Shown: positions 3,455-46,561 of the stretch, in pieces
Layout: each line of letters opens with the position of its first letter
Position numbering within the stretch: the stretch's first letter is position 1
Assembly: GCA_019637955.1 (NCBI GenBank)
Contig: JAHBUS010000001.1
Location: 124,001 to 188,000, forward strand
Direction of reading: 5' to 3'
Length of the DNA: 64,000 nt
Source of the DNA: Pseudobdellovibrionaceae bacterium
Lineage (GTDB): Bacteria; Bdellovibrionota; Bdellovibrionia; Bdellovibrionales; Bdellovibrionaceae
Notes under the pieces: generated by a model
Databases searched by the model: none
The model's input: only the letters and a program-made list of their open reading frames with translations
Told to the model about the DNA's origin: nothing
Program-made: the position numbers and the translations under genes

Positions 3455-3510
3455 CCCTGATGTTGTCCTTGAGACACAAAGCAGAGTCAACGGGCCCGCA
3501 AGTGAACCGT

Positions 3511-3533
3511 AAATGAGAATCGATCTCGTTTTT
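3511..3533 (+). promoter_or_regulatory. Candidate Fur box upstream of siderophore operon
   Basis: The sequence reads AAATGAGAATCGATCTCGTT from 3511 and continues with a T run to 3533. It contains an odd-centred imperfect inverted repeat (GAGA...TCTC around base 3521) resembling the TGAGAAT-n-ATTCTCA form of Fur boxes. It lies 38-60 bp upstream of the first operon codon (GTG 3571) and directly between the divergent TPR gene and the operon. Fur repression fits the iron-uptake role of the genes. The match is partial (about 4 of 7 paired half-site positions), so this is an inference. Confidence 0.5.
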
Positions 3534-3570
3534 ATTGACCGTTTTTACAAGGGAATCTAAAAATGGCGGC

Positions 3571-4872
3571 GTGCGAAAACCTCTCTTCAAGACGCTCTAC
3601 AAATGGCATGTCTACGCCGGCCTTTTCGTCGCCGTTCACTTCGCGATTTTCGCGGTTTCAGGCTTGGTTCTGTTGTTCAAGCACGAGATTCTCGGCGAGC
3701 CGCCCGCCGCCGAATTCACGGCGGTGCCCGAAGACATGGCCGCGCGCTACGCTCAAGCCTTGAACTCGCTCCAGCTTCGCTTCCCGAACGACCGCCCCTT
3801 GGCGCTTTATCCGGACGACAATTCCCCTTCAAGACTCACCGCCCGCTTCGGGATCGACGGCGCCACTCAGCTTCGCGGCGCTCGCAAACTGTCGTGGGAT
3901 CTGGCAAACGGCGCCGAGATCACCGACACCGAAAAACCGGCCACCGGTTTTTTTGAGTGGGTGCTTCGGCTTCACCGCGAGCTTCTCTTGGGCTCGAATG
4001 GCAAGATCTATGTCGGCCTCATCGGCCTGGCCTACGTGTTCATGCTGCTCTCGGGTTTCGTGATCTACGGCAACTTCATGCGCAACCGCCCCTTCGGCGA
4101 ACTCCGCAAAGCCCGCCTTCCGAAATTGATCGATCTGCACAAGTTTGTCGGCGTGGTGAGTTTTGGTTGGGGCCTGATCGTGGGCTTGAGCGGCGCGCTG
4201 CTGGCGTTCAACGGCGTGCTGATCAAACTTTTTCAATTTCAAAGTCTTCGTCATTTGGGCGAGCGCTACCGTGACTTCAGCGCCCAGGGCCGCTCGCTCG
4301 CGCCGATCGAAAACATCATGACGACCGCGCTGACGGCCAAAAAGGACTGGATCGTGACTTACGTTTCGTTTCCGGGCACCGAGTTCGGAATTCCGGGTCA
4401 CTTTTTGGTGTTGATCAACGGCACCACGCCGCTCACGCAGCGCCTGAGCGAACTCTTGGTCATCAACGCCGAAACCGCGAAGCTCACCGAAATTCGCGAA
4501 CTCCCGTTTTACCTGAAAGCGGCCCTGCTGTCCGAGCCCTTGCACTTCGGCGATTACGGCGGGATTTTCTTGAAAATTCTTTGGGCCGTGTTCACGCTTC
4601 TTTCTTTGGCCGTCGTTCTCTTTGGTGTGACCTCATACTTCATGAAGCGCCGAGCCCACCGCTCACCCGCCGTTGTCACCAGCACGCTCCCGCCCCGCCT
4701 TCACAAAATCACGACGCCGCTTGAACGTTACGCGGCGCCGGTTCTGCTCGCGATGATCAGCATGGTGGCCATGGTCTGCGCTCTTCTCTCAACAGGCCTC
4801 TGGGCAAAAATTTTCGCGGCCCTGCTCTTGATCCCGCTGGCGGTCTTGCTGATTCGTGGGAGGACCGAGTGA
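3571..4872 (+). CDS. PepSY-associated membrane protein of siderophore operon
   Basis: A 433-residue inner-membrane protein of the PepSY/iron-regulated membrane protein family, often encoded with ferric-siderophore receptors and thought to help reduce or release siderophore iron in the periplasm. Helices are visible at the N-terminus (WHVYAGLFVAVHFAIFAVSG), near residues 150-175, 200-225 and 330-355, and as a pair at 390-430. His residues sit at helix ends (WHVYAG, LHRELL, LHKFVG), as expected for haem or metal-binding family members. The GTG at 3571 is preferred; an in-frame TTG at 3535 would begin immediately next to the Fur-like palindrome. The 3' end overlaps the exporter gene by GTGA. First gene of the operon. 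Confidence 0.8.
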   Translation: MRKPLFKTLYKWHVYAGLFVAVHFAIFAVSGLVLLFKHEILGEPPAAEFTAVPEDMAARYAQALNSLQLRFPNDRPLALYPDDNSPSRLTARFGIDGATQLRGARKLSWDLANGAEITDTEKPATGFFEWVLRLHRELLLGSNGKIYVGLIGLAYVFMLLSGFVIYGNFMRNRPFGELRKARLPKLIDLHKFVGVVSFGWGLIVGLSGALLAFNGVLIKLFQFQSLRHLGERYRDFSAQGRSLAPIENIMTTALTAKKDWIVTYVSFPGTEFGIPGHFLVLINGTTPLTQRLSELLVINAETAKLTEIRELPFYLKAALLSEPLHFGDYGGIFLKILWAVFTLLSLAVVLFGVTSYFMKRRAHRSPAVVTSTLPPRLHKITTPLERYAAPVLLAMISMVAMVCALLSTGLWAKIFAALLLIPLAVLLIRGRTE

Positions 4873-6068
4873 TCTCGAGGGCCTCTCCCCGTTTTTTGCG
4901 AGCTCTCGCGTGCGCGTCCGCGTTCGCCTTCAGCGGCTCGCAGGCGCTGATGATCGCGCTTTATCCGCTGCTGGCCGAAACGTTGGGATTGCACCTCTCG
5001 ACATTGATCGCCTCGTTCGGAATGGGTTCTTTTCTTTTTATCTTCGCGGGTCCCTATTGGGCCCGAAAGAGCGACCGTTTCGGCCGCGGGCGCATTCTCG
5101 CCGTTGGACTCTTGGGGCTGGCGGTGTCGCTCGCGCTGATCGCTGTGCCGACCTCGGCCCCGTTTTCATCGGGCCGAATCAACCTGGCTCTCTTGCTGAT
5201 GAGCCGCGCGGTTTACGGATTGGTGGCGTCGAGCCTCTCGCCGGTGGCCCAGTCGCTCCAAGCCGATTTGGCCGGTGACGAGGGCGCGGCCAAAGGAATG
5301 ATTCTGCATTCGATGAGCCTCAGTTTGGGCCGCGTCGTGGGACTTGCGCTGATCGTTGGTTTTCACTCGTCGTCCTCTTCACTTCTGTGGGCCGCCGCGG
5401 CGGTTGCGAGCGTCGTTCTGATCGCGGCGCTGATGAGCCCAACCCCCGAGCAGAGTCTGGCGGTCTCGACCGACATCCCCTCGTGGCGCCAGGGCCTTGT
5501 TTCGTCGCGCGGGATCTTGGCCCTCGCGTTTATTTTCACGACATTTGTGGAACTGCTCAACTCGTCCCTCGCCGGCAGCGTGAAGATGATTTTCGATCTG
5601 AGTTCGCTCTCCTCAGCAGGTCTCACCGCCCGGCTGCTGCTGATGGCAAGCCTGGGCATTTTTGCCGTGCAAGCTCTGGCCCGCGTTTTTGCCAAGGCCG
5701 AGTTCCGATGGGGCCTTCTCATCGGCGCGGGGAGTTTACTCGCCGGCGCCGTGGTGTTCGCGGCCGCCTCCACCCTCCCGCAGCTCTGGACCGCCATCGG
5801 CTTTTTTGTTGTCGGCATTGGACTCTTGCCACCGTTCTACCTCACCGCGCTCCGCGCGCAGGGCGAAAAAGACTCTTATGGCCAACGCGCCGGTCTTGCC
5901 GGTTCGGCACAAACCTTGGGTTTTGTGGCGGGCGCGATGGCGGCGGCCCTGCTCTTCCGATTTCCGGGTTTGCAAATTGGACCCGGCCTGATTTTCTTGA
6001 GCCTCGTGCTCGTGCTTTTGAGTTACCGCCAAACTTCAAGGACAATGTCTCCCGTGGAGGCCTCGTGA
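4869..6068 (+). CDS. MFS transporter, probable aerobactin exporter (ShiF-like position)
   Basis: A 399-residue major facilitator protein with 12 predicted helices. The loop-2/3 signature ARKSDRFGRGRIL (about residues 62-74) matches MFS motif A. Known aerobactin islands carry the MFS gene shiF immediately before iucA; here the MFS gene lies in the same place, so export of the siderophore is the likely role. This is inferred from context, as substrate cannot be read from sequence. The start GTG at 4869 overlaps the previous stop (GTGA), and its own stop overlaps the iucA start in the same way, pointing to translational coupling. Confidence 0.85.
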   Translation: MISRASPRFLRALACASAFAFSGSQALMIALYPLLAETLGLHLSTLIASFGMGSFLFIFAGPYWARKSDRFGRGRILAVGLLGLAVSLALIAVPTSAPFSSGRINLALLLMSRAVYGLVASSLSPVAQSLQADLAGDEGAAKGMILHSMSLSLGRVVGLALIVGFHSSSSSLLWAAAAVASVVLIAALMSPTPEQSLAVSTDIPSWRQGLVSSRGILALAFIFTTFVELLNSSLAGSVKMIFDLSSLSSAGLTARLLLMASLGIFAVQALARVFAKAEFRWGLLIGAGSLLAGAVVFAAASTLPQLWTAIGFFVVGIGLLPPFYLTALRAQGEKDSYGQRAGLAGSAQTLGFVAGAMAAALLFRFPGLQIGPGLIFLSLVLVLLSYRQTSRTMSPVEAS

Positions 6069-7816
6069 ACGTCGCGCAACGGGCCACCCACCATGCCGCC
6101 ACTTGTTTTTTAAACTCGCTTCTGCGCGAGTGGACCGAGCACCGCGCCTCGCCCTCCAAGATCGAGATTCCGATCGGTGGTGCGGGTCACATCGACATCC
6201 CGCTGCGGCATCACTCCGTCTTGGGACGGCACCGTTACGAAGGCCGCTTTTTCCTGGTGACGGCTGCGGCCCGTCAGGAGATCGACTTTCTCACGCTCGT
6301 GCACCATCTGACCGAGTTCTTGTCGAAGCGACTGGGCGCGGGCGCCGACCAGAAGCGGCTGTTTGAGGAGCGGGTGCGCTCGAGCCGCGACAATATCGAA
6401 GCGGCGCTTGCGGGACGCCAAACCTCGCTCGCGAAAAAAGCCGTGACGGACTTCGATTTCTTGAGCGCCGAGCAGGCCCTCTTGGTCGGCCACAACTTTC
6501 ATCCCACTCCCAAGAGCCGCGACGAATTCGACGCCGCGGCCTTAGAGGCCTACGCGCCCGAATTCGCCGGCAGCTTCCGTCTGCAGTGGATGGCCGCCGA
6601 CCCTTCGATCGTTTTTGAAAAACGCGCGGTCAGTTTTGCCGATCAAGATTGGACGGCTCAGCTTGCACTCCGCGATCTGCCCCCCGAAAGCGAAACTCAG
6701 GCCCGCACCCTTCTCGAAGCGGGATTCAGGCTGCTTCCGTTTCATCCCTGGCAGCTCGACGTGCTCCGAAAATCCGCCCCCGTTCGCGAGCATCTCGCCG
6801 AGGGACGGCTCAAACCACTGGGCGTTTCAAAATCGGACTGGGGAGCGACCTCCTCCCTGCGCTCGGTGTACCGCGAAGACGCTCCGTTCATGCTGAAGTT
6901 TTCGATGACGCTCAAACTCACCAACTCGATCCGGCATCTTCTCGCGCACGAGGTCGAGCGGGGTTTGCAACTTCAAGACGTCTTAAACACGGTCAAAGGG
7001 CGGGAGTTTCAAAAACGCCACCCGCAGTTTCATGTCGTGACCGAACCGGCCTTCTTCGCTCTCAAAGACGCCGAGGGCCGCCCGATCGACGCGAGCATCA
7101 CGGTCTGCCGCGAAAATCCCTTTCGCCGCGGCCGCGAAAAAGGTCACGCCGTGCTCGCCACCCTCGCCCAAGACGCCCTCTACGGTGGCGAGAACTGGGC
7201 GGTGCAAGCCGCAAACGCCGCCTTCCCTCACGGCTCGCGGGCCGAAAATGGCCGGCGTTGGTTCCGTCGGTACCTCGAGGTCGCGGCCGCCCCTTTGATC
7301 GACGCGCAGGCCAACTACGGATTTTTACTCGGCGCCCATCAACAGAATCTCATCTTGGAGCTCGATGGCGGACTCCCCGTCGCCGCCTCCTTCCGTGACT
7401 GCCAAGGAACGGGCTACAGCGAATTGGGTTTCGCGAATTTCGCGGCCGATGTTCCGCTCATGACCCGTGAAAACGGCAATATTCTCGATGCCAATATGGG
7501 AAATGCTCTCTTCACGTACTATTTGATTTTGAACTCGACCTTCAACGTTATCACGGCGCTCGCCGCGGACCCCGAAGGCGCGGGCGAGACGGACTTGCTC
7601 ACGGATCTTCGAGACTTTTTGCAGCAGCGCCTCGAGCTGGGAGTTCAAGACGCGTCGTTCTTGAGCGCTCTCTTAAACTCGCCGGTCCTTCGTCACAAAG
7701 GCAATTTCCTGTGCGCCCTGAAGAGCATCAACGAAAACACCACCACCGATCCGCTCTCGATCTACAATCTCGTTCCAAATCCCCTCGCCCACGCGAAAGG
7801 ATCCACGAATGCTTAA
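6065..7816 (+). CDS. iucA: Aerobactin-type NIS synthetase IucA
   Basis: A 583-residue IucA/IucC-family ATP-dependent siderophore synthetase. In aerobactin synthesis IucA joins citrate to N6-acetyl-N6-hydroxylysine. Family landmarks are present in order: the N-terminal CFLNSLLRE, EQALLVGHNFHPTPKS, the HPWQ motif, SSLRSVY, KFSMTLKLTNSIR, GAHQQN and the late RDCQGTGYS, corresponding to the ATP and citrate pocket of NIS synthetases. These align by eye with enterobacterial IucA, which has nearly the same length (574-594). The GTG at 6065 overlaps the exporter stop (GTGA). The reading frame is open further upstream to 5387, but that part is antisense-like noise inside the exporter gene. It overlaps iucB by 8 bp. 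Confidence 0.95.
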   Translation: MNVAQRATHHAATCFLNSLLREWTEHRASPSKIEIPIGGAGHIDIPLRHHSVLGRHRYEGRFFLVTAAARQEIDFLTLVHHLTEFLSKRLGAGADQKRLFEERVRSSRDNIEAALAGRQTSLAKKAVTDFDFLSAEQALLVGHNFHPTPKSRDEFDAAALEAYAPEFAGSFRLQWMAADPSIVFEKRAVSFADQDWTAQLALRDLPPESETQARTLLEAGFRLLPFHPWQLDVLRKSAPVREHLAEGRLKPLGVSKSDWGATSSLRSVYREDAPFMLKFSMTLKLTNSIRHLLAHEVERGLQLQDVLNTVKGREFQKRHPQFHVVTEPAFFALKDAEGRPIDASITVCRENPFRRGREKGHAVLATLAQDALYGGENWAVQAANAAFPHGSRAENGRRWFRRYLEVAAAPLIDAQANYGFLLGAHQQNLILELDGGLPVAASFRDCQGTGYSELGFANFAADVPLMTRENGNILDANMGNALFTYYLILNSTFNVITALAADPEGAGETDLLTDLRDFLQQRLELGVQDASFLSALLNSPVLRHKGNFLCALKSINENTTTDPLSIYNLVPNPLAHAKGSTNA

Positions 7817-8783
7817 GCCCCTAAGTCCCCTGACTTGCCGCCCGCCTCAAAACGACCGCGAATACACCGTGACGTTCGACGGCTTCACCTGCCGGGTCGA
7901 AGATGGTGGCCGTCCGGTGCTCATCGCGGGCGCCGAAGCCCACCAGGACACTTTGCGACTGCGCCTGGAGCCCCTCGAAACTCAAGACAAACCCGAGCTC
8001 GTGCTCGGATTGGCCTTGGATGTTTTGTTGGGCCACCACCCTGAAATCAAAAACGTGAAGGTTGTCGATCCTAGCGGCCATGACCTGTCGATCACGCGCG
8101 GCGAGTTTTACCAGAACCCCGCCGTGTGGCACCGCCAAGGCGGCTACGTTCAACGGCCCGAAGAGTGGACCACCACCCAAGGCCGCCGTCACCCGGTGCG
8201 CGAGACTCTGGTTCCTGGAACGTTTTACCGCCGTTACGTCGCCCAAATTCAGAAGACCCTTTCGCTTCGCACGATCGACGCCGAGGCGGACCTCGATCTT
8301 TTTCACGACTGGCACAACCAGCCGCGCGTTTACGATTTGTGGGAGCTGAACAAACCCAAGGACGAACTGCGCACCTATCTGCAAAAGGCCTTGGCGGATG
8401 CGCATTCGATCCCCATGATTCTGGAGGCCGATGGCAAGCCGGTCGGTTACTTTGAGTTCTACTGGGGTGCCGAAGACCGCTTGGCGCCGTACTACGAGTC
8501 CGAGCCCTACGACCGCGGTCTGCATCTGTTGATCGGCGAACCCAGCTTTTTGGGCGTCGAGAACACGAACGCCGCGCTCCGTTCGGTGACGCACTTTCTG
8601 TTTTTGGAAGACGCGCGCACGCAGCGCTTGGTGGCCGAGCCCCGCAGCGACAACCAGCGCATCTTGAAGTACGTGCAGATCGTTCCGGGATGGCGCTTCG
8701 TCAAAGAATTCGACTTCCCCCATAAGCGCGCGGCCCTTTTGATGGCCTCACGCGAACTCTTTTTTAACGGGGTCGTCCTGTGA
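7809..8783 (+). CDS. iucB: N6-hydroxylysine O/N-acetyltransferase IucB
   Basis: A 324-residue GNAT-fold acyltransferase of the IucB/AlcB type, which acetylates N6-hydroxylysine with acetyl-CoA before condensation with citrate. The diagnostic block FHDWHNQPRVYDLWE (about residues 165-180) and the later GYFEFYWGAEDR, RGLHLLIGEP and DNQRILKYV match the acyltransferase domain. The N-terminal ~130 residues are the less conserved partner domain also seen in enterobacterial IucB (about 315 residues). The ATG at 7809 lies inside the end of iucA (8-bp overlap) and the stop overlaps the iucC start, so expression is coupled. All catalytic landmarks appear intact. Confidence 0.95.
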   Translation: MLKPLSPLTCRPPQNDREYTVTFDGFTCRVEDGGRPVLIAGAEAHQDTLRLRLEPLETQDKPELVLGLALDVLLGHHPEIKNVKVVDPSGHDLSITRGEFYQNPAVWHRQGGYVQRPEEWTTTQGRRHPVRETLVPGTFYRRYVAQIQKTLSLRTIDAEADLDLFHDWHNQPRVYDLWELNKPKDELRTYLQKALADAHSIPMILEADGKPVGYFEFYWGAEDRLAPYYESEPYDRGLHLLIGEPSFLGVENTNAALRSVTHFLFLEDARTQRLVAEPRSDNQRILKYVQIVPGWRFVKEFDFPHKRAALLMASRELFFNGVVL

Positions 8784-10543
8784 GCCCGGGCGAGCTTTGG
8801 ACACAGGTCAACCAAACCCTGATCGCCAAGTCGATCGGTGAACTTTGCTACGAGCAGATTCTGGAGCCCAACGCTTTGTCGAGCACGTCTCACGCGCAGA
8901 CCTTCGAACTGACGCTCGCCTCCGGCGCTCAGTACCGCTTCGAAGCTTGGCGGACGCTCTGGGATCACCTGCGCGTCCGTCCCGCTTCGATCACGCGCAC
9001 ACCTGACACCGTCGAGCTTTCGGCGGCGCAGTTCTTCATCGACGCGCAAAAAGAGCTCGGGATGACCGATATCATCCTCGGTAACTTTCTTGATGAGATG
9101 CACTCGACGTTGTACGCCGACATGCACCTCGCCGAGAATCCCCCGACCGCGCGCGAGATGGCCGATTGGGACGGCCGTCGCGTGCAAGCCGCGCTCAATG
9201 GTCACCCCAAACTTCTCTTGAACAAGGGCCGCATGGGCTGGGGCAGCGGCGATCTTGAGCGCTACGCTCCCGAAAACGAGCCGCAGTTCAAGCTGGTCTG
9301 GCTGGCTTTGCACCGTGATCACGTGACCTCGGGCCTCGCCGAAAACGTGGGTTTTGACGATCTCGCCCTCACGGGACTTCAGCCTCAGGACCTGACGCGT
9401 TTTCGCGCTCACCTCACCGAGCGCGGCCTTGCGGCTCAAGACTATCTTTTTGCTCCGGCCCACCCGTGGCAATGGGACCGCATTCTCAAAATCCAATACG
9501 CCGGCGAAATCGCGATGAACCGCATCGTCGATCTTGGCACTGGCGGCGATTTGTACCAACCGCAAATCTCGCTGCGCACTCTCACCAATGTCAGCCGCGC
9601 CGGGCAGCTTGATCTCAAACTGCCGCTGACGGTTTTGAACACCTCCGCGGTTCGCGGCATTCCCGCGCGCTACATCCACCAAGCTCCGAGCGTGGCCGAG
9701 GCGGTGTCGCGCCTGTGCGAGAAAGACCCGGTTCTCAAAGGCGCCGGCACCACGGTCTTGAGCGAAAAAGGCGGCATCAGTTACCGGCATCCTCACTTTG
9801 CGCAAGTCACCGGCGCGCCTTACCGCTACCACGAAACGCTCGGCGCGATTTGGCGCGAAAGCGCCGAGAGCAAACTCGCGGCGGGCGAACAATCGGTCAT
9901 GAGCGCCGCTCTCATGCATCAGGACCGCGAGGGCAGTAGCCTCATCGGCGCTTATATTCAAAAGTCGGGACTCAAAACTCAAGACTGGCTCACGCGCTAT
10001 TTTGAAACCGTGGTCGTGCCGCTTTACCATCTGCAGTTGAAATACGGCTTGGGCCTCGTCGCGCACGGACAGAATGTCGTTCTGAAAATGAAGCACCACG
10101 CGCCGACGGGCGTGCTCCTCAAAGACTTTCAAGGCGATCTGCGCCTTTCGAGCGAAGCGCCCGCCACCAGCCTGCTCAACGATGCGATCAAAGGGCTCGA
10201 CCGCTTGCCGCCCGAGTACCTGATCCACGACCTGCTGACCGGTCACTTGTTGACCGTCTTGCGGTTTGTTTCGGCGACGCTGCAGGAGAGCGAAGGTTTC
10301 GCCGAGAGCGACTTCTACCGCTTGCTGAGCGGCGTGATCGCGCGCTACCTGGACGCGCACGCCCCGGGTGGCGTGGATCCGCGCGTGAATCTTTTGAATG
10401 AAAAAATCCACCGCGTTCTCTTGAACAAAGTGCGTTTTAAAATCGGGTATGCCGACTCGGCCGAGCGGCCGCTCCCCCTCGTGGGACGCGATCTTCTCAA
10501 TCCGCTCGCGAAGGGAGGGATTCATGGCACCGAAACCTTATGA
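8780..10543 (+). CDS. iucC: Aerobactin-type NIS synthetase IucC
   Basis: A 587-residue second IucA/IucC-family synthetase, which in aerobactin synthesis adds the second N6-acetyl-N6-hydroxylysine to the citryl intermediate. Visible landmarks: the citrate/ATP-site KGRMGWG (about residue 148), HPWQWDRI, PQISLRTLTN, LKLPLTVLNTSAVRG, the nucleotide-site HGQN, and LLKDFQGDLR near the C-terminus. Length matches IucC (about 580). The GTG at 8780 overlaps the iucB stop (GTGA), and the end overlaps iucD by 20 bp. A 672-codon open frame on the opposite strand of this gene is a high-GC codon-bias shadow. It is one of two NIS synthetases in the operon, which is the diagnostic aerobactin pairing. Confidence 0.95.
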   Translation: MSPGELWTQVNQTLIAKSIGELCYEQILEPNALSSTSHAQTFELTLASGAQYRFEAWRTLWDHLRVRPASITRTPDTVELSAAQFFIDAQKELGMTDIILGNFLDEMHSTLYADMHLAENPPTAREMADWDGRRVQAALNGHPKLLLNKGRMGWGSGDLERYAPENEPQFKLVWLALHRDHVTSGLAENVGFDDLALTGLQPQDLTRFRAHLTERGLAAQDYLFAPAHPWQWDRILKIQYAGEIAMNRIVDLGTGGDLYQPQISLRTLTNVSRAGQLDLKLPLTVLNTSAVRGIPARYIHQAPSVAEAVSRLCEKDPVLKGAGTTVLSEKGGISYRHPHFAQVTGAPYRYHETLGAIWRESAESKLAAGEQSVMSAALMHQDREGSSLIGAYIQKSGLKTQDWLTRYFETVVVPLYHLQLKYGLGLVAHGQNVVLKMKHHAPTGVLLKDFQGDLRLSSEAPATSLLNDAIKGLDRLPPEYLIHDLLTGHLLTVLRFVSATLQESEGFAESDFYRLLSGVIARYLDAHAPGGVDPRVNLLNEKIHRVLLNKVRFKIGYADSAERPLPLVGRDLLNPLAKGGIHGTETL

Positions 10544-11819
10544 CCTGATCGGGATCGGCATCGGTCCCTTCAATTTAAGTTTGGCCGCTCTGCTCGAAAA
10601 AGCGCCCGAACTCACCTCGGTGTTTCTGGAGCGCAAACCCAGCTTTGACTGGCACCCCGAAGTCATGTTTGAGGACTCCTTGATGCAGACCAGCTACCTC
10701 AAAGACCTGGTCACGCCCGTCGATCCGACCAGTCCCTACTCTTTTCTCAACCACTTGGTGGACCGAAATCTTTTTTACCAGTTCTTAAACACCCAGCGCG
10801 GCACGATCGCCCGCCGGGAGTTTGAGCAGTACTGCGCCTGGGTCAGTCAGAAGTTGGCGCACAAACTTCAGTTCGAAACCGCCGTCAGCGCCGTGTCCTT
10901 CGATGGCGGGCTGTTTCAAGTTCAAACTGCTCGGGGCCTCTTGCAAAGCCGGAGCATTTGCATCGGGACGGGCCTCGTGCCGCGCATCCCGGAATGCGCC
11001 GAACCCCATCTCGGACCCAGGGTCTTTCACGCCAAGTCGCCTGAGCTGAAAAACGTCAATCTCGAGGGAAAATCCGTCGTGATCATCGGCGGCGGACAGA
11101 CCGGCATCGAAGTGTTCCGCAACGCCCTTCTCGGCAAATGGGGTCATCCGGGTTCGCTTCGCTTGGTGACCCGCCGAAAATCCCTGGAGCCGCTCGACGA
11201 ATCGCCCTTCACCAATGACTACTTCACCCCCGCTTACGTCGATGCGTTCTGGGGCCTGACCCTCGATAAAAAGGCTCAGATCGTGGCCTCGCAAAAACTG
11301 GCGAGCGATGGCAACACGCCCAATTACCTGCTGGATCTCTACAACGACCTGTACCGGCTCAAGCATGTCGAAGGCGACACGCGCGAGATCCGCATCCTGG
11401 CCTACCGCAAGCTCGTCGCCTTGAGCAAAACAGGGAGCGAGAATTACACGCTCAAACTCGAGAACGCTTTTTATGACCAGACCGAAGAGATGCGCGCCGA
11501 CGTCGTCATCTTGAGCACCGGCTTTCAAAACGCGATCCCCTCGATTTTGGACCCGATCCGCGGCCGGATCGCTTTCGACCATGAGGGCCGTTTTCAGTTT
11601 AAGAAATGTTACGACATCCGTTGGGACGGACCTCCGGAGAATAAAATCTACGCGCTCAACTTCAGCCGTCACAATCACGGCATCATCGACCCGCAGACCA
11701 GCCTGATGGCTTGGCGCTCGGCCGTCGTGATCAACGATCTCGCCCAGCGGCCTCTTTACAAAACCGAATCCTCCCCCGCCAACTTCGTCGACTACGGCAC
11801 CAAGGAGACCCGCTCATGA
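10524..11819 (+). CDS. iucD: L-lysine N6-monooxygenase IucD
   Basis: A 431-residue flavin-dependent lysine N6-hydroxylase, the first committed step of aerobactin synthesis (lysine + O2 + NADPH). The FAD-binding GIGIGPFNLSLAALLEK lies at residues ~10-26, a NADPH-binding VVIIGGGQTGIEVF near 185, and the family C-terminal VVILSTGFQNA near 330. The ATG at 10524 has a strong AAGGGAGGG ribosome site at 10511; a longer in-frame extension to 10449 would lie wholly inside iucC and is rejected. Length is normal for IucD (425-445). The stop overlaps the receptor start (ATGA). Confidence 0.95.
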   Translation: MAPKPYDLIGIGIGPFNLSLAALLEKAPELTSVFLERKPSFDWHPEVMFEDSLMQTSYLKDLVTPVDPTSPYSFLNHLVDRNLFYQFLNTQRGTIARREFEQYCAWVSQKLAHKLQFETAVSAVSFDGGLFQVQTARGLLQSRSICIGTGLVPRIPECAEPHLGPRVFHAKSPELKNVNLEGKSVVIIGGGQTGIEVFRNALLGKWGHPGSLRLVTRRKSLEPLDESPFTNDYFTPAYVDAFWGLTLDKKAQIVASQKLASDGNTPNYLLDLYNDLYRLKHVEGDTREIRILAYRKLVALSKTGSENYTLKLENAFYDQTEEMRADVVILSTGFQNAIPSILDPIRGRIAFDHEGRFQFKKCYDIRWDGPPENKIYALNFSRHNHGIIDPQTSLMAWRSAVVINDLAQRPLYKTESSPANFVDYGTKETRS

Positions 11820-13933
11820 TCCGCCACCTCTGCGTTTGGACTCTTGTTTTGACCTCCGCCTCTTCGTTCGCGCAGACCGACGCCACGACGCTTGAGACGG
11901 TCACCATTCGGGGCGCTAAAGACGGCACGAACTACGCGGAAACTCCTTCAAGCGTGGTGATCCTTCAAGAGAATGAGCTGCCCGCGAACGGGCGCCAAAA
12001 CAGTCTCGAAGTCATCAACGCGGTCCCCAATGTCACCGTCAACAAAAGCACCGACTCCTTCAGTATTCGCGGCATTAACAACACGGGCGTGACCGGTTTT
12101 CAAAAAGACAACTTGGCGAGCATCGTGATCGACGATGTCTTTCAGACCGATTTGGCCGTGCAGTCGTCGAGCTTCGACTTGTGGGACATGGAGCGCATCG
12201 AAATCCTGCGTGGGGCACAGTCCACCAATCAAGGCGTGAATTCTCTTGCAGGCAGCATCTTGCTCGACCGCCGCCGTCCCGGCTTTAGCCGTGAGGGCGC
12301 GGCCAAGTTGGGGATCTCCAATTTCGGCGGCCGCGAAACCGGCCTCCTCGCAGGCGGAGCGGTCACGGACGCGCTCGCCGCGCGGATCGCGGTCGATCAA
12401 GACGTGAGCGACGGCTCGATCACCAACGTCACCACCCACAACGACAAGTGGGGCCGATGGGATCGCAGCCGCGCCAATGCGGGCTTTTTGTACCAACTGT
12501 CCGAGACCAGCCGTTTGAATCTGAATTTGAAGTACCATCACACTGATCAGGGCGGCACCTACACGCAAGGCAGCGACGCTTTTAGGCGCGAAGTGACCGA
12601 GGACGTCGACTTCAAAACCAAGACGACCAACGGACAGTTCAGCCTCAAGCACGAGACGCAGCTTTCAGGATCTCTCACCAACACGCTCATTTTCGCCTTC
12701 TCGTCCAGCAAGCAGGATCAAACTTCCGATGGCGATGGCGGCCCGGTGCCCCAGGCCGGCACTCGGTACGAAGACCATGCTGATCATTATGTCAGCCTGG
12801 AAAACCGACTCCTCTTCAAAGGCGAGCGTTGGCAGAATCTCGTGGGCGTGCACGCCCACGATTTTAAGCTGACAGATGACTACGATTTCAACTTGCTCTA
12901 TCCGCTCAATGCCGGCGGCACGCTCTCGACGCCGATTCAAATCAAGCAGGGAGTCGACCGCAAGCGCCGGGCCTTGGCCGTTTTTGATTCGGCCACCTTC
13001 CGTGTCGACGAGAATCAAAACATCCTCCTCGGCCTGCGGGCCGAGTCCATCGACTCGAGCTACGGCACCTCGGTCTGGGGCCAGCGCCTGCAAACCACGG
13101 GGAATGCCGGCGTCGACAGCGCCATCGACAACTACGTGAGCGGCGTGACCGGCACCTATGACGGGAGCAAATCAGGGCTCGTGGGCCTGCCAAAATTTGG
13201 TTACACCTATCGAGACGGGGCGCATGTCACCGGAGTCACTTACACGCGTGGCTACCGCACCTCGGGCGTGAGTATCAACCGCAGCCGCGCCCGCGCGGTC
13301 GAGTATGACCCCGAGTACACGAACAATTTTGAGGTCGCGTACAAATACACCGGCGGCGCTTTTGAATTGGCGTCGAACGCGTTTTACATCGATTGGATGG
13401 ATCAACAGGTCCAAGTGCAACTCTCGAACGATTTTTTTGACACCCAAGTGCAAAACGCCGCCAAGGCCGAAGTCGCCGGGGCCGAAGTTGAAGGCAAGTA
13501 CAAAGTCAGCGAATTTCAGCGCTGGGGCTTAGGGGTCGGCTACACCGATACCAAGTTCAAAGAGTTCAACACCAACAGGCGCGAGTACAAGGACAAGAAG
13601 TTTCCGTTCGCCTCGCCCTGGACGGCGCGATTGTCGCTGGAGCTGAGCCCTTGGGAAAATTGGAATTTCTTAACCGTGGCCCGGTTTGTCGACACCGCGT
13701 GGGCCAATGCCGAGAACACGCGCCGTGCCGATGCGCAAAGCTACGTCGATTGGACGGCGAAGTACTCTTGGCAGGCGGCATGGATGTTTGAAGCGTACGT
13801 GAACAACCTCTTCGATGGGCAGTTCCGCACGTTTGACGGAACGCCCACCAGCACGACCTCGCCTTACAAAGGGAGCTACCATCAGGTCAGCGCCCCTCGC
13901 GAAACCGGCGTTCGCGTGACGTACTTTTGGTAA
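11816..13933 (+). CDS. TonB-dependent outer-membrane siderophore receptor
   Basis: A 705-residue receptor with signal peptide (cleavage after SSFAQ or SFA), a TonB-box-like LETVTIRGA, a plug domain (TPSSVVILQENELP... EVINAVPNVTV ... FSIRGINN ... IEILRGAQST) and a 22-strand barrel ending in the outer-membrane insertion signal RVTYFW (terminal aromatic). It occupies the position of iutA in aerobactin islands, so ferric aerobactin is the likely ligand. The plug (NTGVTGFQKDN, SSSFDLWDMERIE) does not look closely like enterobacterial IutA, so no symbol is given. The ATG at 11816 overlaps the iucD stop, with AAGGAGA upstream. Last gene of the operon. Confidence 0.9.
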   Translation: MIRHLCVWTLVLTSASSFAQTDATTLETVTIRGAKDGTNYAETPSSVVILQENELPANGRQNSLEVINAVPNVTVNKSTDSFSIRGINNTGVTGFQKDNLASIVIDDVFQTDLAVQSSSFDLWDMERIEILRGAQSTNQGVNSLAGSILLDRRRPGFSREGAAKLGISNFGGRETGLLAGGAVTDALAARIAVDQDVSDGSITNVTTHNDKWGRWDRSRANAGFLYQLSETSRLNLNLKYHHTDQGGTYTQGSDAFRREVTEDVDFKTKTTNGQFSLKHETQLSGSLTNTLIFAFSSSKQDQTSDGDGGPVPQAGTRYEDHADHYVSLENRLLFKGERWQNLVGVHAHDFKLTDDYDFNLLYPLNAGGTLSTPIQIKQGVDRKRRALAVFDSATFRVDENQNILLGLRAESIDSSYGTSVWGQRLQTTGNAGVDSAIDNYVSGVTGTYDGSKSGLVGLPKFGYTYRDGAHVTGVTYTRGYRTSGVSINRSRARAVEYDPEYTNNFEVAYKYTGGAFELASNAFYIDWMDQQVQVQLSNDFFDTQVQNAAKAEVAGAEVEGKYKVSEFQRWGLGVGYTDTKFKEFNTNRREYKDKKFPFASPWTARLSLELSPWENWNFLTVARFVDTAWANAENTRRADAQSYVDWTAKYSWQAAWMFEAYVNNLFDGQFRTFDGTPTSTTSPYKGSYHQVSAPRETGVRVTYFW

Positions 13934-15759: not shown

Positions 15760-16815
15760 CTACTCCAAAAGGCTTTTGAGCTTTTCAAGATCTTTGCGCA
15801 CCAAGCCCGCGTCACGTTCGAACTCCTCCGAAGTCACGCCCGTGCGCTGAAAGAGGGTGAAGACCACTTCACTCCCCTCGCCATTCGGAAGCACGCGCAG
15901 TGGGTTGTGCACCAAGGCGCCATCCGGGAGTTCAACGTCGTGGTCAACCACGCCAAATTCATTCTTCGGGGCGAATCGAACTTTCACGGCGCCCATCGGC
16001 GAATCGGCCAGCCAAACGTCTCCGGATTTGCGGATCGAGGAACTTAATCCCCCCGCCCATTTGGGCAGGTTCTCGGGATCTGCGACAAAATCATAAACGC
16101 GCGACGGCGGCTGTTTGATGTCAATGCTCAAGTGACGAACGGGCCATTGCAGATGTGAACCGGTCACGGAATCCTCCTTCGCTGGAGCTGACCGCAGCCA
16201 GCCGTAGACATCACCGCCAAGTTTGAGAGAGAGCCCGAGAAGAATCAACCCCGAAACCAGCGCCACCATTCTCATCGCCCGCGGACTGCGCAGAAACGCG
16301 CTGAGGGCGGCCGAAAAGGTGGCCAAACCAAAGAACCAAATCACCGAAAAGGTCGCGGCCCCCGCGCCAAACTGCGCGCGCGTGGCGAGCTCCGGAAAGC
16401 GGGCCGCATAGCCGCCAATCAAGATCACGGTATCGAGGTAGACGTGCGGGTTCAAAAGACTGAAGCCGAGCGTGAGCAGGATCACGCGCTTGACACTCCA
16501 CGCTTCGGGCGCCGCCGCCTCGACGGTCGGAACGGAAGGTGTCAGACCCTCTTTGATTTTTTTGAATCCGTAAAAGACCAAGAAGGCGACGCCCACGGCT
16601 CCAAATCCGATCTTGAGCGCGGGAACGCGGACAAAAATCGTCGCGGCGCCAAGAACGCCGACCGCGATCAAAAGGGCGTCGCAGATCGAACAGACAGTGG
16701 CCACCAAGAGGTGCCGGCGCCGGTGCAAACCCGATTCAAGAACAAAAATATTTTGCGCGCCCAAGGCCAAGATCAAACTGGCCGAGAGCAAAAATCCTTC
16801 AAAGAACGAACCCAT
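15760..16815 (-). CDS. LysE/ArgO-type amino acid exporter fused to a SRPBCC domain
   Basis: A 351-residue protein. Residues 1-~205 are a LysE/ArgO-family basic amino acid exporter: GAQNIFVLESGL at the start of the family motif, FSLLNPHVYLDTVILIGG in the conserved loop after helix 4, and six hydrophobic helices. Residues ~215-351 form a second, soluble module: LSIDIKQPPSRVYDFVADPE begins a SRPBCC (START-like ligand-binding) domain and runs to the C-terminus through VVFTLFQR. LysE proteins are normally ~200 residues without this tail. The joint carries no frameshift. The second module would sit in the cytoplasm or periplasm depending on topology. Possible roles are export of a basic amino acid coupled to sensing or binding of a hydrophobic ligand. 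Confidence 0.8.
   Translation of the reverse strand: MGSFFEGFLLSASLILALGAQNIFVLESGLHRRRHLLVATVCSICDALLIAVGVLGAATIFVRVPALKIGFGAVGVAFLVFYGFKKIKEGLTPSVPTVEAAAPEAWSVKRVILLTLGFSLLNPHVYLDTVILIGGYAARFPELATRAQFGAGAATFSVIWFFGLATFSAALSAFLRSPRAMRMVALVSGLILLGLSLKLGGDVYGWLRSAPAKEDSVTGSHLQWPVRHLSIDIKQPPSRVYDFVADPENLPKWAGGLSSSIRKSGDVWLADSPMGAVKVRFAPKNEFGVVDHDVELPDGALVHNPLRVLPNGEGSEVVFTLFQRTGVTSEEFERDAGLVRKDLEKLKSLLE

Positions 16816-25682: not shown

Positions 25683-25691
<9 letters not shown>
25655..25691. terminator. Bidirectional rho-independent terminator
   Basis: AAAAAACCCGCC-cctcac-GGCGGGTTTTTT with further T residues; a 10-bp-plus stem flanked by A and T runs on both sides, serving the small membrane gene on the plus strand and the bacteriophytochrome gene on the minus strand, whose stop lies inside it. 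Confidence 0.92.
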
Positions 25692-28907
<3,216 letters not shown>

Positions 28908-29005: not shown

Positions 29006-29031
29006 GTATAGTGGCGGCAACGTCACTATAC
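29006..29031. repeat. Perfect hairpin with GCAA loop at end of heme oxygenase gene
   Basis: GTATAGTG at 29006-29013 pairs with CACTATAC at 29024-29031; inner bases extend the stem to about 11 pairs (one G-U) with a GCAA tetraloop on the plus strand. It overlaps the bphO stop codon region (29026-29028). No T-run follows on either strand, so it may be an mRNA-processing or stabilising element between bphO and bphP. Confidence 0.6.
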
Positions 29032-29601
29032 AGACGTGCTCAGATGGGCGCCGAAAAGTTCAAAAGTTTTCTGAGCACTCGTCACGCAAGCAACAGAGAA
29101 ACTCTCGGGCTGATCGTTGAAGCGATCAAGATGGTGTTTGAATTCTTGCCAGTACTTTCCGGTCTCGGGGCCGTAGCCACGATAGAAATTCAGCGCCGAA
29201 TCTGGAAGCTGAAGAGACTCACGCAAATGCCGGCAGATGACTTGCCCGCCGAGGGTTGAGCCTTCCATCACGTACATCACACCCAACACCTCGGCTTCTG
29301 ACCGCGGCACAGGGAAGGAGGCCATCGTCAACGGAAGTGCGAGGCCAAGATGCTCAAGATCGTGCTTGAGGAGCTCTGAACGGCGCATGCGTTCGGCGAA
29401 ATGCGGAATTTTAAGGTGCGCCCAATCCTTGAGTGCAAGTTCGTAAGCACGAAAAAATTCATAGCTGCGAAACAAAAGGCTTTTGTAATGCGAGAGCGAA
29501 AACTCGGGGCTCATCACGGACACGCCGGCTTCGACGTGGCGGTGCTGCTCGGCCGTTCCATTTCGAAGTCGTAGGCTGAGAGGTTCACGCGGAGGGCTCA
29601 T
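29026..29601 (-). CDS. bphO: Bacteriophytochrome-associated heme oxygenase
   Basis: A ~191-residue biliverdin-forming heme oxygenase of the BphO type, which opens haem to give the chromophore of the phytochrome downstream. Visible: proximal His region in TAEQHRHVE, the conserved YVMEGSTLGGQVI, and FYRGYGPETGKYWQEF in the C-terminal helix. The ATG at 29601 is preferred because homologues start near the SLRLRNGTAEQH block, but an in-frame TTG at 29637 has a better ribosome-like GGGAGAAGG; the start is uncertain. Stop at 29026. Neighbour bphP is 118 bp downstream, and the pair forms the classic bphO-bphP operon. Confidence 0.88.
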   Translation of the reverse strand: MSPPREPLSLRLRNGTAEQHRHVEAGVSVMSPEFSLSHYKSLLFRSYEFFRAYELALKDWAHLKIPHFAERMRRSELLKHDLEHLGLALPLTMASFPVPRSEAEVLGVMYVMEGSTLGGQVICRHLRESLQLPDSALNFYRGYGPETGKYWQEFKHHLDRFNDQPESFSVACVTSAQKTFELFGAHLSTSV

Positions 29602-29651
29602 GAAGTTTTTTTTACGATGGCATGAAAGCCCGAGCAAGCCTTCTCCCTGGG

Positions 29652-41400: not shown

Positions 41401-41407
41401 TTAGGCG
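41394..41407. repeat. 14-bp palindrome spanning two convergent stop codons
   Basis: CGCCTAATTAGGCG, centred exactly between the TAA of the 41125 gene and the TAA of the minus-strand kinase gene. Could form a short hairpin in both transcripts. Confidence 0.7.
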
Positions 41408-42963
41408 CGCGCGGCCTTGTACGGGATGAGGCTTCCCACGAGAGTTTTGTAATCGACAGGCTTGGTGATGTACCCATCAAAGCCGGATTCGCTCGCAAGC
41501 TTCGAATCTTCAAGGCGGGCGTTCGCGGTCAGCGCGATGATCGGAAGAATCAATCCTTTTTCACGCAGCGTACGGGCCGCCTCGTAGCCATCCATGTTCG
41601 GCATTTGTACGTCCATCAAGATCAGATCAAACAGACTTTTGCACGCGCTCTCAACGGCCTCTCGGCCGTCGTCTGCGGTCTCGACGCTCGCGCCTGCTTT
41701 TTTAAGGAACGTGGTGAAGAGAAACTGGTTGTCTTTCGAATCGTCAACCAACAGAACTCGCAGACCGGCCAGAACTTTCTGATCCGGCAGAATCTTCGCA
41801 TCGTCGCGTATAAAAGAATCTTTCAGATCCACCTTGGCCGCCGGAAAGCTCAATCTAAAAGTGCTCCCCTTGCCTTCGATCGACTGCAAGACCGTGAGAT
41901 CACCGCCCAGCGCGCGTGCCAAGCGTCTTGAGAGACTCAGTCCCAGCCCCGTTCCGCCGTAACGCCGGGTGGTCGAGCTGTCCGCCTGCGAGAAGTCCTG
42001 AAAAAGACGGCCCGTTTGTTCCGGGGAGAGGCCGATTCCGGTGTCACTGACATCGATAACGACATGCCCATTGTGGAGGCTTCCCCGAATATGCACGCGG
42101 CCGTTCTCGGTAAACTTGACCGAGTTGCTGACGAGATTCAGGATGACTTGCCGCACGCGGTGCCCGTCCGTCATGACGGCTTCAGGAAAATCGTCCGAGA
42201 GCGCAAATGAAAAATGCAAGTTTCGTTCAACCCCGGGGAGCTCAAAGCTCTGCAAAATATCGGAGATCACGTCCTTGAGGGCCACGGGACTTTTCTCAAG
42301 GTCGATCTTGCCCGCTTCGATTTTTGAAAGATCCAGAATTTGTCCGACCAACTTCGTCAGATTCTCTGCATTCCGCTTAATCTTCAAAAGGTACTGCGCC
42401 ATCTCCTCACGGGTCGCCTTCCCTTCTGAGGCCAAATCGGCGAAACCGTAAATGATTCCCAACGGCGTCCGCATTTCATGACTCATATTCGACAAGAACC
42501 GAGACTTCGCAAGATTCGCGTCTTCGGCGGCTCGTAGAGCCGTCTCGAGGCGCTCCTCGCTGTCTTTTAGCTTTTCGGTCAATTGACGGGATCGCAAAAG
42601 CGCCTTGATGGTCGCGATCAACACCGCAGGTTCAAAGGGATGGGTCAAATAGCTGTCCGCACCGCCCTCAAGTCCATGGATGCGGTCCTTTGAGGTGACG
42701 AAGCTCGCCGAGACTTGCAAAACCGGAATGTGCGACGTGAGCGGATCTTTTTTTAAAATTTTGCAGACCTCAAAGCCGAGCATATCCGGGAGATGAATAT
42801 CGAGCGTGATGAGAGCCGGACGGCGCTCGCGCGCCTGCTTCAGGGCATCGGTTCCGCTCGCGGCTTCGATCACGTCATAGCCGTGCGCAATCAGCGTCCG
42901 CGCAACCGCATAACGGGTGGCTTCGGTATCGTCGACAACGAGAATCAATTTGCTAGTGGGCAT
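41401..42963 (-). CDS. Hybrid sensor kinase, receiver-HisKA-HATPase-receiver
   Basis: A 520-residue protein. Order: N-terminal receiver (about 1-125; LVVDDTEAT, phospho-Asp in [10 protein letters not shown]), short coiled linker, HisKA with acceptor His in [10 protein letters not shown] (about residue 160), HATPase (N-box [28 protein letters not shown]), and a C-terminal receiver with LVDDSKDN and acceptor Asp in [10 protein letters not shown]. No membrane segment or sensor domain, so input must come from protein partners; it overlaps the 42953 kinase gene by 11 bp and is the last gene of the stressosome operon, so phosphorelay with the upstream kinase is plausible. C-terminal output is unknown. 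Confidence 0.9.
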
Positions 42964-44758
42964 GGGCCGCTCCGTAATCGAATCCGGCCTTTTTCAACGC
43001 CGCCCTCAGTTCGGCGATCCCGTCAGCTTCACGTTCGTGATGTTTAGCCAAAATCGACGTCGCCCGCTCCGTGATTTTTTCGCGCTCTTGAGTCGATAGA
43101 ACGCGGTTGGTATTGACGATCACGGGAACATCTCGCAAAAGCGGTTCCGACTCGAGGGTTTGCAAAACTCGGAATCCATCAAGTTCGGGCATGACCAAGT
43201 CCAAAAAGATCACGTCAGGACTCCAAGTCCGAGCCAACGAAATGCCTTTGAGGCCATCTGGGGCTTCTTTAAAGACGGCGTTAATCTCCCCAGAGATCCG
43301 GCTTCGAAGGACGTACCGCGAAGGTTCGTCGTCATCGATGATCAAGCATCTGAAGCTGAGCGATTCCCGATCAATCTCGTCCTCGATCGCTTCATGGTTT
43401 CCGATCAGGGTGCCGGTGGACTGCCCCATGTACGTCGTGGGAAGGGTCAAGGTGAAGGTCGAACCCTGTCCCAGCACGCTCTCGACTTGAAGGTCCCCGC
43501 CCAAGAGCCTCGCCAGCTTGCGCGAAAGCGGCAATCCCAGGCCCGTCCCGCGATGCGCCCGGTGCGCGTGGGATTCGACCTGGGTGAAATCTTCGAACAC
43601 GAAATCGAGCGCATCGGCGGGGATGCCGATCCCTGAGTCTTTGACTTCAAAGCGGATCCATCCGGCTTTGGCGTCGACCAAGAGTTCGACCGTCCCTTTG
43701 TCGGTGAACTTCAAAGCATTGGAAACCAGGTTTCGAAGAATTTGGGAGACTTTTCCTTGATCGGTGCAAAGGTAAAGAGCGTGAGACGGGGTCGGGATCG
43801 AGAGTTCCACCGGCGCCCCTTCGGGGATCAGCGGGCGAAACACGCCGCGGATCCCACCCAAAACTTCGTCCACCTCGAAGTCGACGGGATTGACCGAAAT
43901 TTTTCCCGCTTCGACTTTGGCCAGATCGAGAAGATCGTTCACGATCTCAAGAAGGGAGTGCGCGGACTTGGCGATAAACCCGACTTGCTTCTCTTGCTCC
44001 GGCGTGAGTTCGCCGTCGATTCGATTTTGAAGAATCCGCGTCAAGCTGATGATCGAACTCAGCGGCGTTCGGAACTCGTGGGTCATGTTCGATAGAAAGC
44101 TGGTCTTCACCTCGTTGGCTTTTCGAAGCGATTCGGCTTTCTCGTCCAGTTCGGCATACAAAGCCACCACGCCCCGGTTTGTTTCCGCCAACTCGGCGTT
44201 CAAAGCGCGCAGTTCGGTCTGCGTCTGGCGAAGTTCGTCGAGAGCGACCATCAGCTCTTTGTTTTGATTTTGGACTTCTTCAAAGGGCGTTCCGGTGCGC
44301 TCCACCGCGAAAGCCCGCATGATTTTATCGATGTCGGAAGGAAGAATGTCGCCGGAAGATTTGGGGAGCTCTTTTCCCACCTGAACGGTGGTCCCGACCC
44401 CTTCCTTCGATTCGATCTGGAAGTGGTCCATGATCTTTTGACTTCCGTGAAGCCCGACACCCATGCCGGTGGCCGAAACGTAAGTGCCATTCAGGATATC
44501 GCGAAGATTTTGAATCCCGGGCCCCGAGTCTTTCACGGTGACAAAGAGAGTTTTCGGAAATCGAAACGTCATCTCGATTTGACCGCTACCCGCATACTGA
44601 TAGGCATTGCGCGCGAGTTCCGACACCGAGGTGGCAATGCGCGCTTGGTCTTGAGTGCCGAAACCGAGCAGCTTCGTCAGAGCGCGGGTTTTTTGGCGTG
44701 CGGTGACGATGTCTTGCTCCGCCCGGATGGCAACTTTGAGAAGTGACACGTGATTCAT
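42953..44758 (-). CDS. Hybrid kinase with N-terminal RsbT-like ATPase domain
   Basis: A 601-residue protein. Residues 1-~130 form a GHKL ATPase like RsbT/RsbW ([37 protein letters not shown]). A coiled linker ([15 protein letters not shown]) leads to HisKA with acceptor His in THEFRTPLS (about residue 232), HATPase ([25 protein letters not shown]) and a C-terminal receiver with Asp in [10 protein letters not shown]. No membrane segment. It overlaps the SpoIIE-type gene by ATGA and the 41401 kinase by 11 bp. The RsbT-like N-terminus could be recruited to or released from the stressosome, giving direct input to the kinase. Confidence 0.9.
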
Positions 44759-45765
44759 TTGGCCGTCCTTATGACAAGGACCGTGGCATCATCGGTTCCT
44801 CGAGAGCTGTCTCGCCATAATGTAGCAGCAATGATCGACGGATGTCGTGTCAAGAGCCCTGGATACTTCTGCAGATCGAACCGAGAGTTCAGGCCGTCCG
44901 AGTGTAAAATCAAAGACCCCGCGCCGTCCCAGCGCTCGGTGATCGGAGGAACCAGGCGCATTTGCAGACCCGCCGTGCCGTTCTGTGAGAGCAGGTGCTT
45001 GAGCCGCCCCGTGAGCGTCAGAAACCCTTTGATATTGCCCACGCCCGAGAAAACGATCTTCGAGGGAGAACAATCCGCGAAAAAGACCGCAGCCCCCCTG
45101 GTGCCTTTCAGACGGCTATGAACGGATGGAAGGACGCGCTCCAAGGGAGAATCCTTGTCTTCACGGCCGACAGCGATGGCCTCGACGGCGGCCGCGTGCG
45201 CCAGAGGACCGTGCCCCAAGCCGTCGACAACCAGCGCCCTGACGCCGTCGCCGTGGCTTTCGGTGGACCACCCGTCCCCGCAAAAGGTCTCCCCGGGATA
45301 GGGAATGCAGACGGCGCCAACCTGATACTTGGCCAACCCGGCCTGCTTCAACACCTGCGCGAGCACCACCGTTCCGTGCGAAAGGACCGAATGGACGTCA
45401 AAGACCGAAGCGATTCTGCGAACCGCGCCCAAACCTGTCCCCGGCGTGGAGCCGCTCGAGAAACCGTCGATCATGGTTTGCGAGAGGTTCATCCCGGGTC
45501 CGGCATCCACCGCGAGGACCTCAACGCCCGTCGCGCCCAGCTCGCAAACGCGGCGGAGGATGAGATGGCCGCCGCTTGCATATTTCCAGATGTTGTTTCC
45601 GAGTTCATTGACGACGATGCTGAGTTCAGTTTTCTGAACGTCATTCATTTCGAGGGCTTCGGCGAGCTTGACCGCGAAACGGCGCACCTCGCCGACGGCC
45701 GAGGCTTCTTGGATGCGAAACGCGGCGCTTTGGTAGGAATCACTTCCATTTGATAACGGTAACAC
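44755..45765 (-). CDS. RsbT-like ATPase/SpoIIE (PP2C) phosphatase protein
   Basis: A 336-residue protein with two modules: an N-terminal GHKL ATPase-like domain (ELSIVVNELGNNIWKYASG, DAGPGM, GTGLGAVRRIASVF), and a C-terminal SpoIIE/PP2C-type phosphatase of the RsbX style (RALVVDGLGHGPLAHAAAVE with the metal-binding Asp, FFADCSPSKIVFSGVGNI, and GTDDATVLVIR at the end). RsbX dephosphorylates RsbR/RsbS to reset the stressosome; this fused form likely does the same, or regulates the kinase ATPase domain. GTG start at 45765, 26-bp overlap with rsbT. Confidence 0.85.
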   Translation of the reverse strand: MLPLSNGSDSYQSAAFRIQEASAVGEVRRFAVKLAEALEMNDVQKTELSIVVNELGNNIWKYASGGHLILRRVCELGATGVEVLAVDAGPGMNLSQTMIDGFSSGSTPGTGLGAVRRIASVFDVHSVLSHGTVVLAQVLKQAGLAKYQVGAVCIPYPGETFCGDGWSTESHGDGVRALVVDGLGHGPLAHAAAVEAIAVGREDKDSPLERVLPSVHSRLKGTRGAAVFFADCSPSKIVFSGVGNIKGFLTLTGRLKHLLSQNGTAGLQMRLVPPITERWDGAGSLILHSDGLNSRFDLQKYPGLLTRHPSIIAATLWRDSSRGTDDATVLVIRTAK

Positions 45766-46147
45766 GGGTTCCTTTGCCGACTTCGCTTTCGATGTTAAAT
45801 TCGTTCATGAGTCGGCGCGATCCCGAAAGTCCCATGCCGAGGCCACCACCGGAGGTGTAGCCGTCGGTCAACGCAAGATTAATGTCGGGAATCCCCGGCC
45901 CCTGATCCTCGAAAATCAGTCGAAGCCCGTTTTTTCCAATGTCGTTTTTTAAGCTGGCGAGTTCCACCTCGCCGCCCCCGCCGTACTCCAGCGTATTGCG
46001 AGCCAGCTCGCTCGCCGCCGTGATCACTTTGGTCTGATCGATCAAGCTCAAACCCAATTCGATCGTCCAATTGCGCACCTTTTGCCTGACGACAACGACA
46101 TCGCTTTGAACTCGAATCGGGAACCGCTCAGTTTTCGTCACTTGCAT
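45740..46147 (-). CDS. rsbT: RsbT-type switch kinase
   Basis: A 135-residue GHKL serine/threonine kinase. The family blocks are AASELARNTLEYGGGG (N-box), DQGPGIPD (G1), SGGGLGMGLSGSRRLMNEF (G2/lid) and the C-terminal GTRVTVIKW. RsbT is held in the stressosome by RsbS/RsbR and released when they are phosphorylated. Start ATG 46147 chosen since it begins the compact domain (MQVTKTERFPIRV); upstream in-frame extension to 46195 lies in rsbS. Overlaps rsbS by 20 bp and the SpoIIE-type gene by 26 bp. Confidence 0.92.
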   Translation of the reverse strand: MQVTKTERFPIRVQSDVVVVRQKVRNWTIELGLSLIDQTKVITAASELARNTLEYGGGGEVELASLKNDIGKNGLRLIFEDQGPGIPDINLALTDGYTSGGGLGMGLSGSRRLMNEFNIESEVGKGTRVTVIKWK

Positions 46148-46559: not shown

Positions 46560-46561
46560 CG

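Follow-up and report, generated by a model that had tools for sequence, protein, structure and literature searches.

The stretch of DNA analysed here (the window) is 64,000 nucleotides long, covering positions 124,001 to 188,000 of contig JAHBUS010000001.1 from a Pseudobdellovibrionaceae bacterium, and lies within an 887 kb contig of a 3.77 Mb draft genome that is 99.94% complete in 14 contigs. Seven genes, all on the plus strand between 3571 (or 3535) and 13933, encode a PepSY membrane protein, a major facilitator superfamily (MFS) transporter, IucA, IucB, IucC, IucD and a TonB-dependent receptor. The initial annotation had proposed an aerobactin-type siderophore operon in the enterobacterial gene order, with the MFS gene ahead of the biosynthetic genes, the TonB receptor behind them and an additional PepSY gene, and all seven genes and their domains were confirmed. 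The overlap that it described from the MFS gene onward holds at all six junctions, PepSY/MFS included (PepSY/MFS, 4 bp; MFS/IucA, 4 bp; IucA/IucB, 8 bp; IucB/IucC, 4 bp; IucC/IucD, 20 bp; IucD/receptor, 4 bp), and the G+C content at third codon positions is even across the operon (0.73–0.75). The end of the proposed span, 3511–13933, also stands, but the first gene does not begin at 3511: the ATG frame at 3513 runs for only 15 codons, and the gene starts at TTG 3535 or, more likely, at GTG 3571, which gives the best fit to relatives. The mechanically called open reading frame of IucA (809 aa) likewise starts too early, and GTG 6065 is the likely start. A Fur-box-like sequence, GTAAATGAGAATCGATCTC, at 3509–3527 on the plus strand agrees with the classical consensus at 13 of 19 positions (shuffle p 0.01) and is suggestive only; similar boxes lie 5' of two close operons, L068 and L085 (13/19 and 15/19).

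Two of the biosynthetic genes encode nonribosomal peptide synthetase-independent siderophore (NIS) synthetases. The product of 6065–7816 (plus strand, 583 aa) matches the solved IucA structure 5jm7 with an E value of 9.9e-82, the next-best solved synthetase reaching only 1.4e-16, and that of 8780–10543 (plus strand, 587 aa) matches IucC 6cn7 at 1.3e-124, with the next-best at 2.7e-88; the margin in favor of 5jm7 and of 6cn7 exceeds 100 bits in each case. Between them, at 7809–8783 on the plus strand, lies a putative N6-hydroxylysine acyltransferase of the IucB type, a GCN5-related N-acetyltransferase (GNAT) of the Acetyltransf_8 family (PF13523, 9.5e-49) in which the N-terminal part of IucB is present and which is 37–39% identical to IucBs from aerobactin operons. 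We took as strongly conserved those columns that are at least 95% identical among 36 relatives, and every such column is retained: 41 of 41 in IucA, 30 of 30 in IucB and 45 of 45 in IucC.

The fourth enzyme, encoded at 10524–11819 on the plus strand (431 aa; PF13434, 1.8e-104), is a predicted flavin-dependent lysine N6-monooxygenase of the IucD type. It shares 40–44% identity with IucD proteins annotated as lysine monooxygenases and with a relative from Vibrio, compared with 29% for a Sinorhizobium meliloti pSymA enzyme, and it carries the GxGxGPFN, GGGQTG and C-terminal STGF motifs. With these motifs and the conserved columns kept, the earlier statement that the catalytic blocks look intact is borne out. 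In amino-acid hydroxylases, a lysine (K107 in SidA) anchors the substrate carboxylate, and the diamine-acting DesB does not have it (PMC8009421). The equivalent lysine (K60 in the window IucD), together with an SDGxT motif and an IucD-like Gln, was found in every one of the 33 IucDs from operons of this phylum that we aligned, whereas the diamine-type hydroxylases (among them the S. meliloti enzyme, DesB and that of locus L060) have Ala or Ser, Leu and Asp at these positions. The window IucD thus bears the amino-acid-type signature (K60, N/D and Q) and not the diamine-type one, from which its activity is predicted. No diaminobutyrate aminotransferase or decarboxylase gene was found in the operon. 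Given the hydroxylase signature and an operon that lacks genes for forming a diamine, the evidence points most strongly to N6-hydroxylysine and citrate as building blocks. Our best prediction for the product is a siderophore made from these two, either aerobactin itself or a variant with another acyl group.

The first gene of the operon (3571–4872, plus strand, from GTG 3571, or from TTG 3535) encodes an inner-membrane protein with a PepSY_TM domain (PF03929, 1.9e-40) that we regard as a candidate ferrisiderophore reductase of the FoxB/FpvG/PiuB kind. FoxB and FpvG have been described as periplasmic ferrisiderophore reductases, as has the haem and reductase role of FoxB (PMC10866019, PMC13038864). 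The window protein resembles FoxB weakly, with a match at the profile level only (7abw, 2.6e-8), but all four aligned histidines are kept, and these residues (H25, H147, H202 and H337, numbered from TTG 3535) are invariant across the 15 sequences in the alignment. At the sequence level it therefore has the PepSY_TM domain and the four membrane-flanking, predicted haem-ligand histidines of the FoxB type, and it shares with the known reductases a place in an operon with a TonB receptor. A search of the PDB with the single PepSY sequence, and another with the single MFS sequence, returned no matches. The MFS gene (4869–6068, plus strand; PF07690, 2.4e-20) occupies the position of shiF; its product is distantly related to the MFS protein adjoining an enterobacterial iuc operon (29% identity across 140 aa, E 3e-10) and shows a weak likeness to efflux proteins of the family (TIGR00880, NorA), and export of the siderophore is its most likely function.

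The last gene (11816–13933, plus strand) encodes a TonB-dependent receptor, probably for a ferric siderophore, with PF00593 and PF07715 domains and a TIGR01783 match below the cut-off. As first noted from the sequence, it differs from IutA: a BLASTP comparison with IutA gave no significant match (E 0.08). It shares 36–54% identity with the receptors that occupy this position in related operons of the phylum, and on the branch of the tree that holds the window most operons come with a receptor of this type. At the inner membrane, neither the window's genome nor any of three B. bacteriovorus genomes yielded a match to a FecCD (FhuB-type, PF01032) permease; of the 24 genomes tested, eight had a match above the cut-off, and the control of that search was positive in 13 of 14 genomes. 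The absence of a FecCD permease match, together with a PepSY protein that keeps the four FoxB-aligned histidines, leads us to infer that iron is released reductively in the periplasm. FeoB was considered as the inner-membrane carrier for the freed iron and rejected for the window's host, whose genome gave no match to FeoB_C or Gate; it fits B. bacteriovorus, which is among the 23 other phylum genomes tested, all with Gate matches, mostly in proteins of FeoB size. FTR1 permease and ABC-3 matches are present in the window's genome, Nramp was not found there and ZIP matched only below the cut-off.

A concatenated tree of the four proteins (IucABCD; support given as two values) placed the Bdellovibrionota operons in one clade (100/100), sister to the aerobactin operons of Vibrio and Escherichia (99/96). 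The check proposed with the initial annotation, whether the Bdellovibrionota sequences form a clade of their own, was thus answered positively, and the tree, the PDB matches and the relatedness of IucD agree in identifying an aerobactin-type operon. Within the clade, the window operon branches together with operons from three genomes outside its family (f29, f20 and f26), and a tree forcing it together with the Bdellovibrio sequences of its own family was rejected (AU p 0.0025). The simplest reading of this placement is that the operon moved between lineages inside Bdellovibrionota. The outgroups of the tree are thin (12 loci from one exact-peptide-word scan) and its sequences differ in amino-acid make-up; non-matching copies in two rows (L087 in the IucA slot and L058 in the IucC slot) were fixed or dropped, with the same conclusion.

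Among 369 genomes of the phylum, 70 have PF04183 matches and 46 have strong ones (E <1e-30). Strong matches occur in 12 of the 24 genomes of the Bdellovibrio genus (g4), which belongs to the same family (f1) as the window's host and contains B. bacteriovorus SSB218315 plus the genomes that we take for HD100 and Tiberius. The seven genes have the same order as in the window at every locus of this genus that we read and in many genomes of the phylum, predators included, and IucA–D of the B. bacteriovorus loci are 43–56% identical to those of the window (tblastn). A siderophore synthesis cluster has been reported for B. bacteriovorus LR3, which shares 98.6% average nucleotide identity with HD100 (PMC12843806). 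In a PF04183 scan, the genome taken for HD100 had no NIS match outside the operon, and the LR3 cluster is therefore presumably the same operon. Beyond that cluster and a RAST-based mention of siderophores in the paper on the SSB218315 genome (PMC5941755), our literature search turned up no work devoted to siderophore production by Bdellovibrio. The initial annotation considered a siderophore operon remarkable if the host is an obligate predator; the operon is real but not rare, being a common Bdellovibrionota locus found in predators as well, although one that has hardly been described.

The comparison with known systems highlights which half of the pathway is familiar. The window operon shares with the aerobactin operon of enterobacteria and Vibrio (shiF, iucABCD, iutA) the IucA-B-C-D order, flanking genes for an MFS protein (before the biosynthetic genes) and a TonB receptor (after them), enzymes that are homologous one by one, and a sister position in the tree. 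It differs from the enterobacterial operon in its non-IutA receptor, in the PepSY_TM gene that comes first, in an MFS gene that is overlapping and on the same strand, and in a host genome without a FhuB-type permease match. The B. bacteriovorus cluster matches it gene for gene in content and arrangement, but the window operon is closer to those of other families, and of the two hosts only B. bacteriovorus has Gate matches of FeoB size.

We consider it likely that the locus functions as an aerobactin-type siderophore operon, one of a sort that recurs across Bdellovibrionota, coupled to reductive uptake. IucD would hydroxylate L-lysine at N6, IucB would acylate the N6-hydroxylysine, with acetyl as the expected group, and IucA and IucC would couple two acylated units to citrate; the product would be aerobactin or a closely related compound with a different acyl group. 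Export of the siderophore would fall to the MFS protein, and the TonB-dependent receptor would bring the ferric siderophore into the periplasm, where the PepSY_TM protein, acting as FoxB or FpvG does, would reduce the iron and free it from the siderophore. The free iron ion would then enter through another carrier and not through FhuBCD: one of the FTR1/EfeU or ABC-3 type in the window's host, and FeoB in B. bacteriovorus. Control of the operon by iron, and its use in the free-living phase, may be expected as part of this scheme.

Several points weigh against this interpretation. The Fur-like box is weak and has no counterpart before the B. bacteriovorus operons, where a shared box was sought upstream and none was found. 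Lysine is preferred to ornithine as the predicted substrate on grounds of relatedness and of the motif shared with IucD. The acyl group of the product is not readable from the IucB sequence, so that acetyl is the default expectation; a scaffold of lysine and citrate bearing some other acyl chain (a longer, unsaturated or aromatic one, like those of the ochrobactins and nannochelin) is the alternative to aerobactin that we take most seriously, although we think it unlikely. The acyl choice varies among IucB-like enzymes, and the moderate identity of the window IucB to those of aerobactin operons would suit such a product, but the full IucB architecture, with its N-terminal part and all conserved positions, is kept, and the operon clade is the sister of true aerobactin operons. 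A diamine-based siderophore resembling rhizobactin 1021 or schizokinen is highly improbable. The rhizobactin 1021 operon of Sinorhizobium has a comparable set of genes (two NIS synthetases, a GNAT and a monooxygenase), and relatives of the window proteins occur in S. meliloti, but its hydroxylase is of the diamine type, with Ala, Leu and Asp as in DesB in place of K60 and the IucD-like signature, the window operon contains no diamine-forming genes, and in the tree the proteins of S. meliloti branch well away from the clade of aerobactin and Bdellovibrionota operons. We rejected a rhizobactin-like product on the hydroxylase signature.

The transport half of the scheme also has to be weighed against a different division of labor. 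MFS proteins that import whole ferric siderophores exist, and the window protein could be such an importer, as RhtX, FptX and LbtC are; the PepSY protein would then have another role, for example in copper or general metal reduction. The lack of a FecCD permease match in the genome would fit this possibility, as would the PepSY_TM subfamily that serves a copper/haem-copper oxidase function (PMC13038864). The shiF position of the MFS gene, its weak resemblance to efflux-type proteins and the presence of the PepSY gene alongside the siderophore operon in many genomes all speak for export and reduction instead, and we judge import by the MFS protein somewhat less probable again than the different acyl group. 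A permease hidden in the gaps of the draft, or one outside PF01032, is possible and would likewise count against reductive release. That the operon is decayed or silent, the host living mainly on prey iron or xenosiderophores, seems quite improbable. Its patchy occurrence, in half of the Bdellovibrio genomes (12/24), indicates that it can be lost, but seven intact overlapping frames with no deviation at conserved positions speak against decay. Aerobactin-type synthesis with export through the MFS protein and reductive uptake of the iron remains our preferred interpretation.

Related NIS proteins of the phylum show further arrangements. IucA and the IucB acyltransferase domain are joined in one frame in a clade of 12 sequences (families f12 and f9) and in two others. 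The loci with this fusion are L059, L064, L065, L067, L069, L078, L082, L083 and L107–L112 (for example L065:10133–12391, minus strand). The fusions are mostly 730–800 aa long and do not contain the N-terminal part of IucB; Pfam assigned IucA_IucC, FhuF and Acetyltransf_8 to a single chain in all seven that were scanned, and a single fused clade for all 14 was not rejected (p 0.13). An IucA-GNAT fusion also occurs at L060 (genome G002, family f12), a distinct NIS cluster with the diamine-type signature (Ala, Leu, Asp). NIS enzymes are normally cytoplasmic and ATP-dependent, which makes an exported family unexpected. One candidate member is encoded on contig C11 of the window's genome at about 230.7–232.1 kb (L072:9698–11083, minus strand): this protein of 461 aa resembles IucA/IucC and has what looks like a signal peptide. 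The 11 relatives that we read elsewhere in the phylum mostly start with a signal peptide or lipobox and keep SxR(T/S), K, HxQN and (R/K)D motifs, and weakly NIS-like, exported-looking proteins of this kind are spread across the phylum, mainly in genomes without the operon.

Elsewhere in the window, all on the minus strand, are a LysE-type exporter of amino acids whose C-terminal domain is polyketide cyclase/SRPBCC-like (15760–16815), close to the lysine-using operon; a bacteriophytochrome histidine kinase with a response regulator domain (25683–28907) and an adjoining haem oxygenase (29026–29637), together a light-sensing pair; and a row of histidine kinase, SpoIIE/HATPase and RsbR-STAS proteins (41401–47434) with the look of stressosome-like stress signalling.

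The operon is real, intact, of the aerobactin type and also found in predators, with familiar chemistry and an uptake half that is different. Beyond this, we tentatively propose a wider picture, which is possible but less than even in our estimation: that Bdellovibrionota, obligate predators included, may possess an aerobactin-type pathway that has been exchanged within the phylum, in which citrate-hydroxamate synthesis is combined with reductive periplasmic release in place of FhuBCD, iron is gathered by free-swimming cells or from lysing prey, and IucA and IucB are fused in some lineages. If predatory Bdellovibrio do secrete a siderophore, they would compete for iron outside their prey, and the operon would open to experiment the question of how a predator feeds itself from one meal to the next.

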